In this document: one piece after another, positions 19,929-28,509 of the stretch | Layout of the letters: each line of letters opens with the position of its first letter | Position numbering within the stretch: the first letter of the stretch is position 1 | NCBI GenBank assembly: GCA_001803635.1 | Contig: MHDU01000074.1 | Coordinates: forward strand, 62,001 to 126,000 | Length of the DNA stretch: 64,000 nucleotides | Source: Nitrospirae bacterium GWB2_47_37 | GTDB taxonomy: Bacteria; Nitrospirota; Thermodesulfovibrionia; Thermodesulfovibrionales; Dissulfurispiraceae | Reading direction: 5' to 3' | Notes under the pieces: model-generated | Told to the model about the DNA's origin: nothing | What the model saw: the letters and a program-made list of their open reading frames with translations, nothing else | Databases searched by the model: none | Translations under genes and position numbers: made by a program

Positions 19929-20966
19929 ATGAAGATTAAGAAGTTTGTCGGAAAAAATTTTAAAGAGGCCCTTGAGACCGTGAAAAAGGAACTCGGGCCC
20001 GACGCAATAATACTTTCGAGCAAATCCGCGAAGTCCGGGCCCTTCGGTATTATCAGCAAGGACGCGGTTGAGGTTACTGCCGCTATCGATGAATCCGAGG
20101 ACAGGGAACCCGTAAACGAAAGACAGCCGGTATCGGTGGAGGTCGAGGAGATAATAAGGGAGATAAGGGGGCTCAGGGATGAAATGGGATTTTTGAAAGA
20201 GACCTTGAGGCCTATAGTCCCTACGCTCAGGATTGGAAAGAATAAAAAGGGATTATTCAATCTTTTGGTAAAACAGGGGGTTGACACCCAGTTTGCGATA
20301 ATCTTACTCGAACGCTCCCAGGATTCTCTGGACAGCCTTAAAAACGCCTTAAAAAGAGACCTGAAGATTCAGGGACCGATGAGTGCGGATGATAACGGAC
20401 TTATATTTCTCGGCCCTCCGGGCGTCGGTAAGACCACTACTATGTCTAAAATAGCCCACGTGCTTGCGGCGGAGAAGAAGCATGTAAATCTCATATCCCT
20501 CGATGATAACAGGATAGGCTCGATAGCATACATGAAAGATCTGTCGAGACAGTTGCGCTGTCCGTTAAAGATAATAAGGAAGGTAAGCGATCTGCCGAAG
20601 ATAGTGTATAGGGAGATGGGAAGGGGGCCTATCCTTATAGATACGCCGGGATATGAGTATAAAGGCATACTCGAAGACATAAAGGATCTATTTCCTTCGG
20701 GTTTTCCGGTAAAGAGATGTTTTCTGATGGATGCGACAATGGAGACTCAGGCGGCCGTTAAGGCATGGCAGGGATGCAATATAGATATGATAGATTCCAT
20801 AGGTTTTACGAAACTCGACATGGCTACGCAGTATGGAAACCTCTATAACCTTTCGTTGTTGACGGGCCGTCCTTTATCGTTTATAGCTACCGGCCCCGAC
20901 ATTCCCGACGACATAAGGGTTCCTACTCCGGAATTTCTTGCAGGCCTGATCATCGGAGGTGTTTAA
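19929..20966 (+). CDS. flhF: SRP-type GTPase FlhF
   Basis: 345 residues. The N-terminal B domain (MKIKKFVGKNFKEALETVKKELGPDAIIL) is followed by a helical N domain and a G domain with G1 GPPGVGKTTTMSKIA, DTPGYE (G3) and TKLD (G4). FlhF sets the polar site and number of flagella. It is shorter than the usual 370-450 residues because the linker is short. The stop overlaps the flhG start (TAATG). Confidence 0.96.
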   Translation: MKIKKFVGKNFKEALETVKKELGPDAIILSSKSAKSGPFGIISKDAVEVTAAIDESEDREPVNERQPVSVEVEEIIREIRGLRDEMGFLKETLRPIVPTLRIGKNKKGLFNLLVKQGVDTQFAIILLERSQDSLDSLKNALKRDLKIQGPMSADDNGLIFLGPPGVGKTTTMSKIAHVLAAEKKHVNLISLDDNRIGSIAYMKDLSRQLRCPLKIIRKVSDLPKIVYREMGRGPILIDTPGYEYKGILEDIKDLFPSGFPVKRCFLMDATMETQAAVKAWQGCNIDMIDSIGFTKLDMATQYGNLYNLSLLTGRPLSFIATGPDIPDDIRVPTPEFLAGLIIGGV

Positions 20967-21775
20967 TGAGCGCGAACGGTCCACGTATAATAGCGGTATC
21001 CAGCGGTAAAGGCGGCGTCGGAAAAACCAATTTTACGGCCAACCTTGCCCTGTTTTATGCAAGTCTCAATAAAAAGGTGCTCATACTCGACGCGGATCTG
21101 GGGTTGAGCAATATAGACGTATTGTTCGGAATAGCTCCGAAGTATAATCTCAAGCATGTGCTGTTGGGAGAAAAGAAGATAAAGGATATTATCGTTACCG
21201 GGCCTCTCGGGATAACGATCCTGCCTGCGAGTTCCGGCATCAGGGAGCTTACGAAACTGACGGACGGGCACAGGTTAAAGCTCGTATCGGAACTCGATGA
21301 TTTCGATATGGCTTTCGATGTGTTTTTGATAGACACAGGGGCCGGAATATCCGATAACGTGTTGTTTTTCTGCAGCGCCGCTCAGGAGACAATAGTGGTC
21401 GTAACTCCCGAACCCACATCCATAGCCGATGCCTATGCCCTGATTAAGGTGCTTTCGAGGGACTTCGGAGAAAAGAATTTAAGGATTATGATAAATACGG
21501 CCCGCTCCGAAAAAGAGGCGTTCGACACATTCAGAAAACTGGCGATTGTAGCCGATAAGTTCTTAAATCTTTCCATAGACTATCTGGGATTTTTGCCCTT
21601 CGAGCCGCATGTAAAGGATGCTATTATCGCTCAGAAAGGCTATATTGCCATGTATCCTAACAGCGCTTTCACCAAAAAGCTGGCGCATATAGGCAAAAAG
21701 CTGCTCGATAACCCGCTTAACGAAGTGAAGGGCACTATCCAGTTCTTTTTGAAAAAGGCGTTAAGGGTCGGATAG
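20966..21775 (+). CDS. flhG: MinD-like ATPase FlhG (FleN/YlxH)
   Basis: 269 residues. The deviant Walker A (SSGKGGVGKTNFTANLA) and the DADLGLSNIDVLFG and DTGAGIS motifs place it in the MinD/FlhG group. It lacks an obvious FlrA-binding DQAxxLR motif at the N-terminus. The C-terminal amphipathic region (GTIQFFLKKALRVG) probably binds membrane. It activates FlhF GTPase and limits flagellar number. It is overlapped by flhF upstream. Confidence 0.96.
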   Translation: MSANGPRIIAVSSGKGGVGKTNFTANLALFYASLNKKVLILDADLGLSNIDVLFGIAPKYNLKHVLLGEKKIKDIIVTGPLGITILPASSGIRELTKLTDGHRLKLVSELDDFDMAFDVFLIDTGAGISDNVLFFCSAAQETIVVVTPEPTSIADAYALIKVLSRDFGEKNLRIMINTARSEKEAFDTFRKLAIVADKFLNLSIDYLGFLPFEPHVKDAIIAQKGYIAMYPNSAFTKKLAHIGKKLLDNPLNEVKGTIQFFLKKALRVG

Positions 21776-21845
21776 CAGCCGGATAGTAATAGTAATTGTA
21801 ATTTGCCGTTTTCCGGTGTATTATTATTGCAGAGGCAAGGAAGCC

Positions 21846-24185
21846 ATGAGAGTCGAAAACAGCAAATTGCAATCCATGATGTCTTATTCCGCAGAAGGCG
21901 CTACCGAAAAGGCCAATCCGCAACTCAGCATAGCGTACGTAGTAGGCCACGAACTCGGACATGCGAGCACGAACAGGATGCTTGCGATCTCAAAAGGCGA
22001 GGAAGTAGATCAGAATATAACCTATAAAGTAACCGTAAGGGACGGCAGATTGACGGCCGTCGGCGGCACTACCGAGGCTACGTTTAAAAAGACGGATGTT
22101 AAAAGCCGTAAGCCCGAGACGGTGAGCAAGTCTCAGGAGCCCGGAGTTCAAAGGCCGGCAAAAAATATTACATCGAGCCCGCCGGATACCGCAGTAATCT
22201 ACGGCAGACAAATCCAATCCTTGAAAGTAAAAAGAGAAGAACTTGAGCAAAGGCTTATGGATATGAAAAATGGAGAGAATGCCGAAGGTATTACCGGATT
22301 AGAATCCGAATCCGGCATGCAGGAAACAGGCATGCCGCTGTCTCAGGACTTATCCCTAAGGGATTACATCAAAGATTCCGAACAAGAGAGGATGAAGAGG
22401 GAAATAAAAAGGCTTGAGCAGGATATAAAGGAAGTAAAGACAAATGATGAAGACAGGAAATATGATGATAGTCAGTTAATCGGGTTCGGTCATAAAAGTC
22501 AGGAACAGGCTACAGATCAGCGGCCGCAGACCACTTCACAGGACACAACCCTCAATGGGCTCGTCTTTTTAAACAACTTCAGATTCGTGGAGCAGGAAGT
22601 CCCGCCTGTGGTCTTTATAGACGGCGGCGGTTCTGCGTTAAAGGTAAGGGACGCGCTCGAGGTGCTCGTAAATGAGAAACAGAGGAGAGAGCCTCCCGTA
22701 ATTCAGAGGCTTAATCTCAATCCCGCATTTTATAAAGTAAAGTCTTCTCGATGGGACGAACTCGGGAGTCGTCTCATCGAATTGTATAAATCGAATATCC
22801 CCCTTCTTAGCGCGGAGGGATTCAATACAAATGCGGCTTCTTCATCGGATGAGGAAACGTTAACGGCAGCGGCATCATCGAATGCCGTACCCGGAGTGTA
22901 TAATTTAAAGGTAAACCAACTTGCGAAGGCTCACCGGATAGAATCGGACATTTTTGAGGATACCGGGTCGGAGCTTAATCTTTCAGGAACGATAAACATA
23001 AACGATTTCGATGTTTTGATAGATGAAACGGATTCTCTATACGCCATCGCCGATAAAATCAATTACGGCGAAGACTTAAACAGGAACGGAACGCTCGATT
23101 TCGGAACGGAGACGGATGCGGATAACGACAGGCTTATGGATCAGGGCGAGGACGGCAACCGCAACGGCGTTCTCGATACGAGAGAAGATATTAATTTTAA
23201 CAATGAACTCGACGGCGGCACGGATAAGCACGGCGTGCAGGTTACTATCGCTGAAGGAAAACTTATTTTTACGGCATCCGATACGGGAAAGGAAATAAAC
23301 CTTAAGGACGATAATGATGTACTTAGGGAACTCGGTATCCTGAGCTATGACATATACCCGCTGAATGTAACTTTTAAGCATGAATTACAGCCGGCGCAAA
23401 AAGCGAATATAACCGTCGACGACGTGGAATACGAAATAGACGGCAACGAAATAGCGGGAGCGATAGAGGGAATTACTCTTTCGCTGAAAGGAACGTCTTC
23501 TTCGGAAGTTGCAGTAACGGTATCCGAATCCACGGACGCGGCGTTCTCTAATATCAGCGCTTTCACGGACGATTATAACAATGCAATGAAGTTCCTGAAC
23601 GATCAGATAAAATTCGCAAAGGCATTTTATCAGGACATCGCGGCACAGCGCGTCAGGACGGATCTTATGCACAGCATTGCGGACGATGTAGGCGGCCGGC
23701 CTTCCGATTTCGACAATATAACCGATATCGGCATCTCTGTCGCTAATACCGGCAAAAACAGCATGAATCAGCTTAGTTTGCTGAACCTTTTAAAGAAAGT
23801 AAAGGGAGAGGTTAAGAACAGCTTATCCATGCCTTTGAAGGGGTCAGGCTCGATATTGTCGAGTATAGAAGACCTCGGCATTAAGACAAAAGACGATGAT
23901 ACTATTGAGATTGACGGTGAAAAACTTAGGGAAGTGTTGCAGGCTACTAATGCTGCCGTATCCGCAATGTTCAACAGCGATAGCGGCATTTCGACGAGGC
24001 TGAAAAAACAGCTCGACAGGGAACTTGACGAACGGCTCGGTACGATAGTATTTCAAAATACAGTGATAGCAGTCACGATAAAAACACTCGATTCTCTTCA
24101 GAAGCTGCAGGATTTAAAGGAGACGCTCAGCAATATTAATGAAAGAGGGCGGCTTATATCGTCAAACATTTCCGTAACGGCATAA
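21846..24185 (+). CDS. FliD-like protein with N-terminal SprA-related HEXXH region and Ca-binding-like repeats
   Basis: 779 residues from ATG 21846 (after AAGGAAG). Residues about 25-80 contain a HELGH motif (35-39) followed by KVTVRDGRLTAVGGTTEATF, resembling the SprA-related putative metalloprotease family. A coiled-coil segment lies at about 120-200. From about 300 the sequence is FliD-like: STFNxxAASSSDEETLTAAASSNAVPGVYNLKVNQLAKAH-type region (about 325-365), then a block of DxNxNGxLD units (about 407-460), and a FliD_C-like region (about 515-779) ending in a hook-associated helix. The canonical FliD N-terminal D0 (GLxSGLD...IVxxL) is absent. It could be a modified filament cap or a secreted accessory. 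The protease activity is not demonstrated, and the third zinc ligand is not obvious. Confidence 0.75.
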   Translation: MRVENSKLQSMMSYSAEGATEKANPQLSIAYVVGHELGHASTNRMLAISKGEEVDQNITYKVTVRDGRLTAVGGTTEATFKKTDVKSRKPETVSKSQEPGVQRPAKNITSSPPDTAVIYGRQIQSLKVKREELEQRLMDMKNGENAEGITGLESESGMQETGMPLSQDLSLRDYIKDSEQERMKREIKRLEQDIKEVKTNDEDRKYDDSQLIGFGHKSQEQATDQRPQTTSQDTTLNGLVFLNNFRFVEQEVPPVVFIDGGGSALKVRDALEVLVNEKQRREPPVIQRLNLNPAFYKVKSSRWDELGSRLIELYKSNIPLLSAEGFNTNAASSSDEETLTAAASSNAVPGVYNLKVNQLAKAHRIESDIFEDTGSELNLSGTININDFDVLIDETDSLYAIADKINYGEDLNRNGTLDFGTETDADNDRLMDQGEDGNRNGVLDTREDINFNNELDGGTDKHGVQVTIAEGKLIFTASDTGKEINLKDDNDVLRELGILSYDIYPLNVTFKHELQPAQKANITVDDVEYEIDGNEIAGAIEGITLSLKGTSSSEVAVTVSESTDAAFSNISAFTDDYNNAMKFLNDQIKFAKAFYQDIAAQRVRTDLMHSIADDVGGRPSDFDNITDIGISVANTGKNSMNQLSLLNLLKKVKGEVKNSLSMPLKGSGSILSSIEDLGIKTKDDDTIEIDGEKLREVLQATNAAVSAMFNSDSGISTRLKKQLDRELDERLGTIVFQNTVIAVTIKTLDSLQKLQDLKETLSNINERGRLISSNISVTA

Positions 24186-24236
24186 CCTGCTGATACGCCT
24201 GTAAAAATTTTATAAAATAGTTTATACTAACAATCT

Positions 24237-24995
24237 ATGGACATCGCTACTTTTTTAGGACTGATATTAGGCGTAGGCGCAATTTTTGTCGGCAATATTA
24301 TCGAAGGAGGCAATACTTCGCATCTTGTACAGGGCGCAGCCGCACTTATCGTGTTCGGCGGCACTTTCGGCGCAACCCTGCTGAGTTTTTCGATGCGGGA
24401 TGTCTTCAACGCCTTTAAAGCCCTCGGTCTGGTGTTCGGGGGAAGCCGGCAGTCCCCTTCGGAGGTAATAGAAGAGATACTCGGCATCCTCGTTAAGGCG
24501 AGAAAAATGGGACTTATCGCCCTCGAGTCGGAGGTTAAGAATATAAGCAATCCATTTCTGAGGAGCGGACTGGGCTTTGTCATAGACGGTATGACTCCTG
24601 CGATGATAAAGGACGTCCTCTATCAGGAAATAAGCACTTATGAGGAGAAAATGAAAAACGCGGCCGATGTTTTGGGCGCCGCGGGCGGATACGCTCCTAC
24701 CATAGGAATACTCGGAGCGGTCCTCGGCCTGATTCAGGTCATGAGGAATGTCAGCGATCCGGCAAAGATAGGCGGGGGAATAGCGGTAGCGTTCGTAGCG
24801 ACTATTTACGGCGTCGGATCCGCGAACCTGATATTTTTGCCTATGGCGCGGAAGATAATGAACAGGGTGAAAGAAGAGGCATTTACAAGGGAATTGATAA
24901 TAGAGGGCATAATAGGCATAGAAAGCGGCGTTAATCCTTATTTCCTGAAGACGCGTCTGAATGCGTTCGTTTCGGAGCACGATAAATCGGAGTAA
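24237..24995 (+). CDS. motA: Flagellar stator protein MotA, first set (PomA/MotC-like)
   Basis: 252 residues with four membrane helices. Conserved cytoplasmic segments are seen (GLIALESEVKNISNPFLRSGLGFVIDG), and the channel helices are intact (AAGGYAPTIGILGAVLGLIQVM; GGGIAVAFVATIYGVGSANLIFLPMARKI), with Thr/Ala positions typical of PomA/MotC-type stators. It forms the stator pentamer around MotB. motB follows after 2 nt. Confidence 0.95.
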   Translation: MDIATFLGLILGVGAIFVGNIIEGGNTSHLVQGAAALIVFGGTFGATLLSFSMRDVFNAFKALGLVFGGSRQSPSEVIEEILGILVKARKMGLIALESEVKNISNPFLRSGLGFVIDGMTPAMIKDVLYQEISTYEEKMKNAADVLGAAGGYAPTIGILGAVLGLIQVMRNVSDPAKIGGGIAVAFVATIYGVGSANLIFLPMARKIMNRVKEEAFTRELIIEGIIGIESGVNPYFLKTRLNAFVSEHDKSE

Positions 24996-24997
24996 GC

Positions 24998-25636
24998 ATG
25001 AGAAGAAGGCGCAGGGTATCACATGAAAGACCGAGCCATGAAAGATGGCTGATATCGTATGCCGATTTTATAACCCTCATGTTTACTTTTTTTGTGGCTC
25101 TCTACGCGTTATCTTCGACCGATACAAAAAAAATGGAAAAGTTTTCAGGATCGCTGCGTCAGGCTTTTAAGGTTATAGATGAGCCCATTTCGTTTCAGGA
25201 GGATAAGCACAAGGCCGTTATAGAGGATTTAAGAAAAGTTATTACGGACGTTTCAGGCGTGTCCGTAAAAACAGACCCGAGGGGAATAGTGCTGACATTC
25301 TCGGATACGGCTCTTTTCGCTTCGGGCGCAGCCGACATAAAACAGGAGGCATCCGGAGCCCTTGAAAAGCTTTCAAAGACGATTAACGGGACGCCGGGCA
25401 AAATAACTATAGAAGGACATACCGATAATATACCTATGTCCGGAGGCAAATATGCGTCCAACTGGGAGCTTTCCACTGCGCGGGCCGCGAGCGTCCTGAG
25501 TTTTTTCGTGGGGAGGGGCGTTGACCCGAACAGGTTTTCCATAGCCGGCTATGCCGAATACAGGCCGTTGACGAGCAACGAAACGGAAGAAGGAAGGGCA
25601 AAGAACAGAAGGGTCGAGATGATTATAAGCCAATGA
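24998..25636 (+). CDS. motB: Flagellar stator protein MotB, first set
   Basis: 212 residues. One membrane helix carries the essential ion-binding Asp in SYADFITLMFTFFVALYA. The plug and OmpA-like peptidoglycan-binding domain follow (ITIEGHTDNIPMSGGKYASNWELSTARAASVL, ending NRRVEMII). It anchors stator units to peptidoglycan. It is shorter than the second MotB and lacks a Pro-rich tail. Confidence 0.95.
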   Translation: MRRRRRVSHERPSHERWLISYADFITLMFTFFVALYALSSTDTKKMEKFSGSLRQAFKVIDEPISFQEDKHKAVIEDLRKVITDVSGVSVKTDPRGIVLTFSDTALFASGAADIKQEASGALEKLSKTINGTPGKITIEGHTDNIPMSGGKYASNWELSTARAASVLSFFVGRGVDPNRFSIAGYAEYRPLTSNETEEGRAKNRRVEMIISQ

Positions 25637-25678
25637 GGCAGTTATAATATAATCAGCGGTTGTAAAGGAGCAGGCGGA

Positions 25679-26215
25679 ATGAAAAACAGCGATGACAAAA
25701 GTTTGAAGATGAGGGAATTTTCGAGGGTGGACGCACATATCCCTTTTAGCGTGCGTATTGTCCCTCCCGAAGAGCGGAAGGGCATGCGGTCGAAAATAAC
25801 CGGCGAGTCCATTTTAGCCGAATTCCAGACGCTGACGGATCTCGAAGATAAACTTCTTTCGGATTGGCTCAAGATGCTGAACGCGAAATTAGACGCGATT
25901 ATTAATATGATCACATTTCAGAGGGAAGGATTCGGCTCGCTTCCGTTTATGCAGGTCAATATAAGCGGCGGCGGTTTGAGTTTTTTTTCTCCGGAGAAAT
26001 ACAACATAGGCGATATCATAGAGATGAAGACGATGCTGCCGATGATGCCTCCCGTGGCTATGTATATTTACGGCGAGATCGTAAAGCTCGAAAGCCGTGC
26101 AAACGGCAACATTGTTGCGGTTAAATATATAGAGATCGATGAGGAAATAAGGGACGAGATAGTGAAATTCGTTTTCAGAAGGCAGCGGGAAATGCTCAGG
26201 GAAAAGAGAAAATAA
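25679..26215 (+). CDS. PilZ-domain c-di-GMP receptor protein between the two stator sets
   Basis: 178 residues. RxxxR is present near the N-terminus (REFSR, 12-16) and NxSxxG further on (NISGGG, about 97-102), the two halves of the c-di-GMP-binding signature. The roughly 80 residues between them are helical and charged. The C-terminus completes the PilZ beta barrel (GEIVKLESRANGNIVAVKYIEI). The position between motAB pairs suggests YcgR/FlgZ-like control of stator choice or speed; that is an inference. Confidence 0.85.
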   Translation: MKNSDDKSLKMREFSRVDAHIPFSVRIVPPEERKGMRSKITGESILAEFQTLTDLEDKLLSDWLKMLNAKLDAIINMITFQREGFGSLPFMQVNISGGGLSFFSPEKYNIGDIIEMKTMLPMMPPVAMYIYGEIVKLESRANGNIVAVKYIEIDEEIRDEIVKFVFRRQREMLREKRK

Positions 26216-26235
26216 AAATGAGGGGAAATAGTTAG

Positions 26236-27093
26236 ATGTTGGCGATAATAGGCGCTGTTATTGTTTTGGGTATGGTTATCGGCGGGTATCTCATGGAGCA
26301 CGGGAACCTTGCCCTTCTTTTTCAGCCTGCCGAACTGGTTATTATCGGAGGCGCAGCATTGGGCGCCTTTATAATTTCGTCTCCGATGAAGGTTATAAAG
26401 TCGGTTATCGGCGGTGTTTTTAAGGTATTGGGCGGAAAGGCATATTCAAAAATAGACTATATGGAAGTCCTGATGATGTTTTCGGAGATTTTTGCGAAGA
26501 TAAGGAAGGAGGGGCTCGTTTCCATAGAAGCGGACGTCGATGACCCTGAAAGCAGCAAGATTTTCAGCAATTATCCCAAATTCCTGAAAAACCATCACGC
26601 CTTGATTCTGGTTACGGATACGCTCCGCACAGTCATGACGACGAGCATAGCGCCTCATGAACTGGAATCGCTGATAGATACGGAAATCGAGGCATTGCAT
26701 GAAGAGGAATTGATACCTTCCAGCGCCATAAGCAATATTGCCGACGGCATGCCGGCGCTCGGCATAGTTGCGGCGGTTTTAGGGGTCGTTATTACGATGC
26801 AGAAAATAAGCGAGCCTCCGGAGGTATTGGGCCACAGTATCGGTGCGGCTCTGGTCGGCACATTTTTGGGCGTATTGCTGAGCTACGGGTTTGTAGGGCC
26901 TGTCGGAAGGAATTTAGGCTATTTAGCCAATGAGGAGAAGGAATACCTTAGCGTGCTTAAGACCGGATTGGTCGCGTTTGTCGGAGGCGCTGCCCCGCAG
27001 ATAGCGGTTGAATTCGCAAGAAGAATAATCCCGGCAAGTGTAAAACCCCCCTTTATAGAAGTTGAAGAAGCGATGAGGGAAATGAAGAAATAG
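26236..27093 (+). CDS. Flagellar stator protein MotA, second set (E. coli/LafT-type)
   Basis: 285 residues, the longer MotA class. Four membrane helices, a large cytoplasmic loop (LMMFSEIFAKIRKEGLVSIEADVDDPESSKIFSNYP), the conserved Pro-containing helix DGMPALGIVAAVLGVVITM, and a channel helix (GHSIGAALVGTFLGVLLSYGFVGPV) are all visible. This differs in class from the first MotA, so two stator types are encoded. An AGGGGAAATAGTTAG leader precedes the ATG. Confidence 0.95.
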   Translation: MLAIIGAVIVLGMVIGGYLMEHGNLALLFQPAELVIIGGAALGAFIISSPMKVIKSVIGGVFKVLGGKAYSKIDYMEVLMMFSEIFAKIRKEGLVSIEADVDDPESSKIFSNYPKFLKNHHALILVTDTLRTVMTTSIAPHELESLIDTEIEALHEEELIPSSAISNIADGMPALGIVAAVLGVVITMQKISEPPEVLGHSIGAALVGTFLGVLLSYGFVGPVGRNLGYLANEEKEYLSVLKTGLVAFVGGAAPQIAVEFARRIIPASVKPPFIEVEEAMREMKK

Positions 27094-27126
27094 TTCGGTT
27101 TAAACTGTTCAAACGGTTTCAAGTGT

Positions 27127-28509
27127 ATGTCGGACAAGGGAAAATCCATAATCATCAAAAAAATCAAGAAGGGCCACGGCGGCCATCACGGCGGCGCGTG
27201 GAAAGTCGCGTATGCCGACTTCGTCACAGCTATGATGGCATTCTTCTTATTGTTGTGGCTTATGACAATGACCGACCAGCAGAAAAGAATAGCCTTATCG
27301 CAGTACTTTACGGATTTCAGTTTATTCGAAAAATCGGGCACAAGCATGTTTATGGAAGGACAATCCGGCGTTATGAAGGATGCCGGAGGCGGAAAAGTAA
27401 AGGCATTGGAGTTAGGACAAAAAACAGGGCTTGGGCCGGCTGAAAGTTTAAAGGATAAACTGAAAAAAGAAATAGAAGCTAAACTTCAGGCGCTGAAGGA
27501 TCAGGCGCTTATTGATATATTCGAAGGCGGCGTCAGGATACAGCTTGTCGATCTGGAGGGGAAATCAATGTTCCTCCCCGGCAGCGCGCAACTCAGCCAG
27601 AACGCTAAACAAATCATAAAGATAGTGACCGAAAATATAAAAGAACTGCCTAATAAGATTGCGGTGGAAGGCCATACGGACGCTGCACCGTTAAAAAAAG
27701 GGCAAATTACGAACTGGGAGCTTTCCACGGACAGGGCATCGTCCGCGCGGAGAGAGCTTGAATTAAACGGCATCAAACTTGGACAGATCGCAAGGGTTGT
27801 CGGTTATGCGGATACGGAACTCTTAGACCCTCAGAACCCCACCGATCCTAAAAACAGGAGGATAAGCATAATTCTGCTTCAGTCGAAAGTAGCGGAGATG
27901 ACCCAGCCCACAAAGGATACTGAGGCTAAACCGGCGCCGCATCTTGTGCCTCCACCGCCGCCTCCGTCGCAGGTACAGCAAGAGCCTGCGGTTAAAAAAG
28001 CGCCTGCATTTCCGCAGGAACAGAAGAAGGATGCCGGCGGACCGGATTTGGGCATAAGACCGAAGGGACCGATAGAAATTAAAGGTCCTATTAAGGATGT
28101 CGCGCCTTCATCCGGCGGACAGGTCAAACCTGTTCAGCCGAAGGCAGGGCAGCAAAAACAAGCCCCTGCCGAGAGACCTGCGCCTCCTCCTCCGCCTCCG
28201 TCGCCTAAGGTTGAGCCTCAGACAAAGAAACAGCCTGCGGAAAAATCTGCACCCAAACAGGATTTAGGCATAAAGCCCATAGCGCCTATAGTCCCCGGAG
28301 TGCAGGGTAAAGGACAGGCCCAACCTGTTCAGCCGAAGGCAGGGCAGCAAAAACAAGCCCCTGCCGAAAGGACTGCGCCTCCACCACCACCTCCTCCGAG
28401 ATCCGAACCGCAGAAGCAGCCTGCCGCAAAACCGGCTGTTAAACAGGAGCAGAAGAAGGCGATAGGCATAGAGCCTATCGCGCCTATCGTTCCCGGCATC
28501 GGGAAATAG
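27127..28509 (+). CDS. Flagellar stator protein MotB, second set, with Pro/Gln-rich repeat tail
   Basis: 460 residues. A His/Lys-rich N-terminus (KKGHGGHHGGAWKVAYADF) leads to the membrane helix with essential Asp31. The OmpA domain (about 140-260) is complete (VEGHTDAAPLKKGQITNWELSTDRASSARREL). Residues about 265-460 are a Pro/Lys/Gln-rich tail with three imperfect repeats: PVQPKAGQQKQAPAER + polyproline, ending GI+PIAPIVPG. This tail is unusual for MotB, which normally ends soon after OmpA. The repeat DNA at 28129-28175 and 28324-28370 is nearly identical. Confidence 0.93.
   Translation: MSDKGKSIIIKKIKKGHGGHHGGAWKVAYADFVTAMMAFFLLLWLMTMTDQQKRIALSQYFTDFSLFEKSGTSMFMEGQSGVMKDAGGGKVKALELGQKTGLGPAESLKDKLKKEIEAKLQALKDQALIDIFEGGVRIQLVDLEGKSMFLPGSAQLSQNAKQIIKIVTENIKELPNKIAVEGHTDAAPLKKGQITNWELSTDRASSARRELELNGIKLGQIARVVGYADTELLDPQNPTDPKNRRISIILLQSKVAEMTQPTKDTEAKPAPHLVPPPPPPSQVQQEPAVKKAPAFPQEQKKDAGGPDLGIRPKGPIEIKGPIKDVAPSSGGQVKPVQPKAGQQKQAPAERPAPPPPPPSPKVEPQTKKQPAEKSAPKQDLGIKPIAPIVPGVQGKGQAQPVQPKAGQQKQAPAERTAPPPPPPPRSEPQKQPAAKPAVKQEQKKAIGIEPIAPIVPGIGK
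28129..28370 (+). repeat. Internal repeats in the MotB C-terminal tail
   Basis: Two 47-nt stretches 195 nt apart are identical except for one synonymous change (GAG/GAA). Adjacent LGI+P units recur three times at the protein level. Confidence 0.85.

Follow-up and report, generated by a model that had tools for sequence, protein, structure and literature searches.

Flagella that carry enzymes have been described in bacteria, with the catalytic domain built into the filament subunit. The flagellinolysins hold a metallopeptidase within the hypervariable region of flagellin (PMC5595980), and, as far as the accessible portions of two flagellinolysin accounts tell, the enzyme of such flagella resides inside flagellin only (PMC5595980, PMC7643111). 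The available text of the flagellinolysin paper makes no mention of the cap protein FliD (PMC5595980), and a search of the openly accessible literature found no enzyme-bearing or fused FliD. Flagella are also linked to the SprA-related proteins. In Campylobacter jejuni, the presence of the SprA-related protein CJM1_0395 in the supernatant depends on the flagellum, and the accessible part of that study reports no activity for it (PMC5223770). With regard to the cap itself, the available portion of the C. jejuni account describes legs separated by gaps, N-terminal residues that fold under and behind the subunit, and a C-terminal part for which contact with the filament lumen is proposed (PMC7316729).

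The gene described here, which we term gene X, encodes a FliD-type protein with an N-terminal HELGH module. The window, the whole 64,000-nucleotide stretch of DNA that was analyzed, contains a flagellar cluster with two-component regulator genes, flgC, fliF–fliI, fliK, flgD, flgE, fliL, and fliM, which continues with fliP/Q/R, flhB, flhA, flhF, flhG, gene X, motA, motB, a PilZ-type gene, and a second motA/motB pair. These names were assigned by sequence, and those of FlhF, the FlhG/MinD-type protein, MotA, MotB, and FlhA were tested. The features of gene X and its neighbors, in window coordinates, are as follows.

20966–21775, + strand: flhG-type ATPase gene directly upstream of gene X (MinD-family match)
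21846–24185, + strand: gene X, a 779-aa protein with an N-terminal HELGH module, a linker, and a FliD module (ORF translation, Pfam)
21846–22091, + strand: N-terminal module of X, residues 1–82, the most conserved part (AlphaFold2 of the module alone)
21948–21962, + strand: HELGH, residues 35–39, a putative zinc-binding HExxH motif (invariant in 4/4 orthologues)
22041–22067, + strand: DGRLTAVGG, residues 66–74, an SprA-like hairpin segment (hhalign register with SprA GPDG(R/K).YAVGG, marginal score)
22092–22595, + strand: variable linker, residues 83–250 (two predicted long helices, 116–142 and 172–202, from a low-confidence model)
22596–24182, + strand: complete FliD-type module, residues 251–779, with D0/D1 N part, D2/D3, and D1/D0 C part (Pfam, structure matches, profile alignment)
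23073–23222, + strand: four D-x-N-x-N/D-G-like loops, residues 410–459, a possible calcium-binding insert in D2/D3 (kept in all four orthologues)
24237–24995, + strand: motA directly downstream of gene X (NCBIfam NF006583 over cut-off)
24998–25636, + strand: motB-type gene after motA (best match MotD, below its equivalog cut-off)

Gene X starts at an ATG at 21846, just 5′ of which lies an AAGGA-like ribosome-binding site. An alternative GTG at 21816 would add 10 aa, and the four orthologues align from the ATG. The two N-terminal segments that a preliminary description had singled out, HELGH and DGRLTAVGG, are both read in the frame 21846–24185. The FliD-like character given there to the C-terminal half is borne out as well, as both FliD domains score above their Pfam cut-offs within residues 286–766: FliD_N at residues 286–363 (E 4.5e-13, 50.1 bits versus a cut-off of 24.8) and FliD_C at residues 517–766 (E 1.2e-23, 84.2 bits versus 25.4). 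Ten distinct sequences of solved FliD structures match this part, the best being 5fhy (E 5.7e-21). The same description held that the normal N-terminal D0 helix of FliD is missing, and this proved incorrect. In profile alignments of the four X proteins, residues 258–404 correspond to residues 8–156 of one ordinary FliD and residues 258–382 to residues 7–131 of a second. Because residue 258 aligns with residues 7–8 of ordinary FliDs, X is a complete FliD module whose D0 segment is present and displaced behind ≈250 extra residues. The best score of X against the NCBIfam FliD equivalog models is 103.5 versus a cut-off of 387, which makes it a paralogue within the FliD superfamily rather than a FliD equivalog. 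The D-x-N-x-N/D-G-like loops, spaced 12 to 14 residues apart, form a cluster that is seen in none of 23 FliD frames from relatives, three of which contain single matches; judged by its motif, it is a possible calcium-binding insert in D2/D3.

The genome also carries a second, ordinary fliD, as the preliminary description had proposed to check, in a flaG-fliD-fliS set on another contig (C5; flaG and fliS were identified by eye). This fliD is read as two overlapping frames, one of 242 aa and the other of 549 aa (locus L001, 697–2986), which may reflect an assembly error or a real break. Two of the three genomes with orthologues of X, G013 and G028, have an ordinary fliD in one frame (885 and 809 aa, respectively), and none was seen in the third, G012, a genome that is 88% complete. 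In a tree of the FliD part (23 rows, 499 columns), the four X proteins form one clade with 100/100 support, whose branch length is 2.07 changes per column and which stands apart from all ordinary FliDs. X is thus a fast-diverging paralogue of single origin. A 409-aa FliD-like protein of genus g4 (L138, 5068–6294; L139, 4818–6044) was considered as a possible form of X without the module and rejected, since its gene is located away from any flagellar cluster and its sequence falls among those of ordinary FliDs. It does not have the usual N-terminal GLDxxxLVxxL segment, and its gene adjoins a Sua5/YciO-like gene (names by eye).

The position of gene X can be compared with the same junctions in related genomes. 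A flhG-type gene is present in 28 of the 31 genomes of the family; four of these gave no locus, and in the other 24 loci the gene that follows flhG is fliA in 20, X in three, and a contig end in one (FliA was recognized by eye, with one tested as FliA/WhiG). The flhG-fliA junction, common in the family, is broken in the genus that carries X (window position 21775), and the genome's own fliA is located on another contig (C76). Gene X adjoins flhG in the window, G012, and G013, and adjoins motA in the window, G012, and G028, the G013 contig stopping 134 bases after X. Upstream of motA, 25 family loci show fliD and/or fliS in seven cases, X in three, contig ends in three, and other genes in 12. 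Because fliD and/or fliS occupy this place in seven loci, the site of X is normal for a cap gene, and it is the X-motA block that has moved behind flhG in the genus. Further along, the window holds two motA/motB pairs with the PilZ-type gene between them (24237–28509), and the C-terminal tail of the second MotB is long, rich in proline, and repeated.

Gene X is rare. Full-length matches occur in four of the 31 family genomes and in four of the 176 genomes of the order, and the orthologues are 79% (G012), 81% (G013), and 43% (G028) identical to X (named records L064–L066, all Nitrospirota; L064 is that of G012). A search for the module in a phylum sample of 395 genomes gave three strong matches, with the next best at E 0.003, and the 11 loci inspected among the weaker matches are general zinc-peptidase helices or unrelated frames. 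Patterns drawn from X matched 34 times on genome contigs, with three matches confirmed, all in Nitrospirota, under patterns strict enough that distant relatives could be missed. On viral contigs, 45 pattern matches yielded no confirmed X; phages gave no match, and on plasmids there was none to the module and matches to the FliD part only.

Within this small family the module is the most constant element. An HExxH motif stands at residue 35 in all four orthologues, with no loss among these close homologues, and the HELGH lies within AYVVGHELGHASTNR, which at 15 residues is the protein's longest invariant run; the next is SYSAEGATE (9), followed by runs of 7 and 5. The retention of HExxH in all four proteins within the longest invariant run argues that it is not a chance motif. 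Between X and the G028 protein, the module (residues 9–82) is 65% identical and the whole protein 43%, with 14 to 39% in pieces of the linker, 41 to 55% in the FliD parts, and 25% in the first eight residues. Three pairs within the genus give dN/dS values of 0.22, 0.12, and 0.10 for the module and 0.15 to 0.18 for the whole gene. Judged from these sequence comparisons, the module is kept by purifying selection and is better conserved than the FliD part. The motif appears in 0/23 FliD frames of relatives, some of which are fragments or repeats of one gene.

The gene is also a mosaic relative to its G012 orthologue. Residues 1–250 have dS values of 0.13 to 0.17 and the FliD ends 1.4 to 1.6, and close to the junction of the modules the nucleotide identity with L064 (window 22596–24400) falls from ≈92% to ≈72%, a pattern that would fit an exchange of the FliD part with a diverged allele.

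AlphaFold2 modeling of the module alone (four rows) gave a mean pLDDT of 73.6, so that helix and hairpin are predicted at fair confidence. The predicted module comprises a helix at residues 29–49 that contains the HELGH, followed by a hairpin of strands 52–65 and 68–82; residues 1–18 form a low-confidence tail, and no secondary structure is predicted before residue 29. A model of full-length X (pLDDT 34) was used solely for a loose list of helices. Foldseek searches of the module against the PDB returned no matches at E ≤ 0.001. In VIA-align (989 chains) the best Z was 4.2, and the match list includes no metallopeptidase family, a result that excludes nothing. Flagellar rod and hook-junction chains were among the weak VIA-align rows (Z 3.2–4.1); the resulting idea of a rod/hook-type N terminus was rejected, as the profile scored only 9.6 against three rod-type proteins.

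The preliminary description had called the N-terminal region SprA-like. What stands of this is the arrangement, in that an HExxH helix is followed by a DGR..AVGG hairpin in the same order by eye. Formal membership was rejected, because the SprA-related Pfam family, PF12118, has no match in X (nor anywhere in its own genome at E ≤ 10) and profile-profile scores are marginal, barely above those of column shuffles. Using hhalign, the module profile scored 21.8 (E 0.0025) against 12 SprA fragments versus 19.5 for the best of 200 shuffles, and 24.3 versus 20.2 (200 shuffles) against 27 fragments. Restricted to the residues that follow the helix, the comparison scored 18.8 versus 17.6 (200 shuffles), and with the HExxH columns masked the score was 19.1 versus 18.8 (100 shuffles); the masked alignment retains DGRL.A.GG of X on GPDGK.Y..GG of SprA, in register. 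A composite HExxH...DGR..A.GG pattern was found only in the X and SprA rows of a set of 205,527 residues with 59 HExxH motifs, which is a description and not a test, since the pattern was written after both families were known and the set is SprA-enriched.

The residues that differ between the two families count against both catalysis and a descent from SprA. In the SprA alignment (A3), E60 and D64 are invariant or nearly so, and in the hhalign register their positions in X are occupied by T75 (Val in G028) and T79. The SprA hairpin, GPDG..Y.VGGEV.ID, thus carries an E and a D where the DGR..AVGG of X does not, and the conserved SprA segment ALAPA.PS.QD was not seen in X by eye. A third zinc ligand is not evident in the module, E53 being the sole invariant acidic residue after H39. 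With the SprA acidic positions lost and a third ligand not confidently identifiable, an active protease cannot be assumed. Overall, kinship with SprA is suggestive only, and we read the module as a true zincin-type helix joined to a hairpin of possible SprA descent.

Other metallopeptidases resemble X at the motif helix. The module profile scored 40.5 against the M48 active-site helix (15.4 for the best shuffle; 60 shuffles, 20 sequences), and kinship with M48 was rejected because this score vanishes once the HExxH columns are masked. The 20 sequences form an independent set, used in place of a first M48 set (score 54.7) that was biased in that its rows were matches of the same query. The M48 Pfam model gives 12.4 bits versus a cut-off of 20.3, and no downstream E-x-x-x-D helix motif was seen in the conserved part. 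Against M78 the score was 25.7 versus 17.5 (60 shuffles), with four motif-chosen rows of which one is probably not a peptidase. No protease family exceeded its cut-off on X. Matches to Peptidase M91, YlqD, and 5′-nucleotidase (E 0.05–0.06) were set aside as below cut-off and absent for the distant orthologue, and neither flagellin N/C nor M9 domains matched over cut-off (Flagellin_IN, E 0.16).

SprA-related genes occur elsewhere in the phylum. PF12118 matches (E ≤ 0.01) are present in 32 of 295 Nitrospirota genomes, 29 of them over cut-off, and the genome of the window (G000) and G013 have none. Neighboring ORFs of the SprA genes were read, and the eight fliW or flaG neighbors among them were tested. 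A SprA gene adjoins fliW in seven of the 29 loci (L067, L069, L070, L072, L074, L081, and L085) and flaG in one (L077), a flagellar link of SprA outside Campylobacter. Together with the C. jejuni protein, these loci suggest how a cap-type gene could have acquired, by fusion, an enzyme that was exported through the flagellum.

What X does can be approached from these features. On the sequence evidence X is best read as a FliD paralogue that has diverged and to which a zincin-like module is fused, and the explanation that we favor, tentatively and at somewhat under even chances, is that this second FliD paralogue is exported and situated at the filament end or a junction, with a tethered module that binds zinc and acts on protein. 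The ≈250-residue extension consists of a compact, ≈80-residue HExxH module that resembles the core of flagellum-secreted SprA-type proteins, followed by a long, helical, variable linker. X would most likely leave the cell by the flagellar type III export apparatus, and its export through the flagellum is probable; its FliD part would then occupy the filament's distal end or one of its junctions, assembling as cap proteins do. The tethered module would bind zinc and act on a protein outside the cell or on X itself. The architecture, the conservation, the presence of an ordinary second fliD, the flagellar gene neighborhood, and the single origin of X are shown by the data, whereas export, tip location, and zinc binding are inferred, and proteolytic activity is the least certain component. 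By analogy with the published cap, of which part was available (PMC7316729), an N-terminal extension would start in the leg near the filament lumen, where a folded enzyme would be awkwardly placed. The extension might reach out through a gap between the legs by means of its linker, or it might be cleaved away. The rarity of X (4/176 genomes) counts against the favored explanation. A narrower version, in which an SprA-type enzyme otherwise freely secreted via the flagellum became fused to FliD and is tethered at the tip as a zinc protease, appears unlikely.

The competing explanations differ in the role they give to the HELGH. The glutamate of an HExxH motif, E36 in X, is the catalytic base of HExxH enzymes, and its invariance together with both histidines speaks against a metal-binding but non-catalytic module, in which the HELGH would hold zinc for folding, oligomerization, or adhesion and X would serve as a specialized cap or an adhesin. 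At a purely structural site E36 would be dispensable. The non-catalytic reading has in its favor that the third ligand is not evident, that the SprA acidic positions are lost, and that the module is just ≈80 residues long, and although unlikely it retains an appreciable chance. Alternatively, the HELGH could be a chance resemblance within an export, chaperone-binding, or assembly segment without metal or proteolysis. The N-terminal position would suit an export signal, and the low confidence of residues 1–18, the lack of predicted secondary structure before residue 29, and the failure of any protease family to exceed its cut-off also favor this view. We consider this improbable, given a canonical HExxH with zincin-typical hydrophobic flanks that is invariant in 4/4 proteins, found in 0/23 other FliD frames, and set in a module to which rod-type N termini provide no profile match (9.6). 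A self-processing module, needed solely during export or assembly, would cut the linker and free a normal-looking FliD module. Such a scheme accommodates a variable, helical or disordered linker between two conserved ends and a FliD module that starts where ordinary FliDs start, and with the extension gone, the filament lumen would escape the crowding inferred from the accessible part of the cap study (PMC7316729); a cleavage site is not recognizable, however, and we regard this as a distinctly slim prospect. The enzyme and self-processing readings differ in whether full-length X is present in flagella. Least probable is a cytoplasmic or motor-associated factor outside the outer flagellar structure. 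The neighbors of X are indeed flhG and motA rather than flagellin or fliS, but X has a complete FliD module with both D0/D1 ends, and fliD-fliS precedes motA in several relatives, so that the place is normal for a cap-type gene. Returning to the favored explanation of an exported paralogue with a tethered, zinc-binding module, the locus suggests, short of proof, that the flagella of a few Nitrospirota bear an enzyme close to the tip.

If there is a protease at the tip, X would be the first filament cap to bear an enzyme. With the HExxH module carried by a FliD paralogue, the enzyme would form one ring at the growing end, as opposed to thousands of copies along the filament, and the flagellum-secreted SprA-related proteins, about which little is understood, would also be linked to the filament itself. 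If the module proves inert, X still demonstrates that 250 extra N-terminal residues can be accommodated by cap-type proteins, a point of relevance to models that lock the N terminus of FliD in the leg.

Set beside the known families, X has both Pfam domains of the FliD/HAP2 caps (PF02465, PF07195) and aligns with ordinary FliDs from their first residues almost to the C terminus. It differs from them in its HELGH-bearing extension, its loop cluster, its very long branch, and its genomic setting, being a second copy beside an ordinary fliD with no adjoining flaG or fliS. Its likeness to the SprA-related family (PF12118) lies in the HExxH helix followed by the DGR..AVGG hairpin and in the flagellum link; unlike those proteins, X has a spacing 7 to 8 residues longer, no Pfam match, neither the acidic E60/D64 positions nor ALAPA.PS.QD, and a module fused to FliD where SprA-related proteins stand alone. 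With the M48 and M78 zincins (HtpX and ImmA type) it has in common an active-site helix with HE(L/I)GH, and the similarity ends at that helix, the downstream glutamate helix being absent from X. The closest parallel in concept is flagellinolysin, in which an HExxH zinc-protease module is likewise borne on a flagellar structural protein. X shares this idea and not the family: flagellinolysin carries a collagenase-type M9 domain in the middle of flagellin, whereas in X, a FliD paralogue, the module spans ≈80 residues, stands at the N terminus, and belongs to no known family. We class X within the FliD superfamily, as a paralogue whose N-terminal module is new; if it works as an enzyme, X would function like an enzyme-bearing flagellar part.
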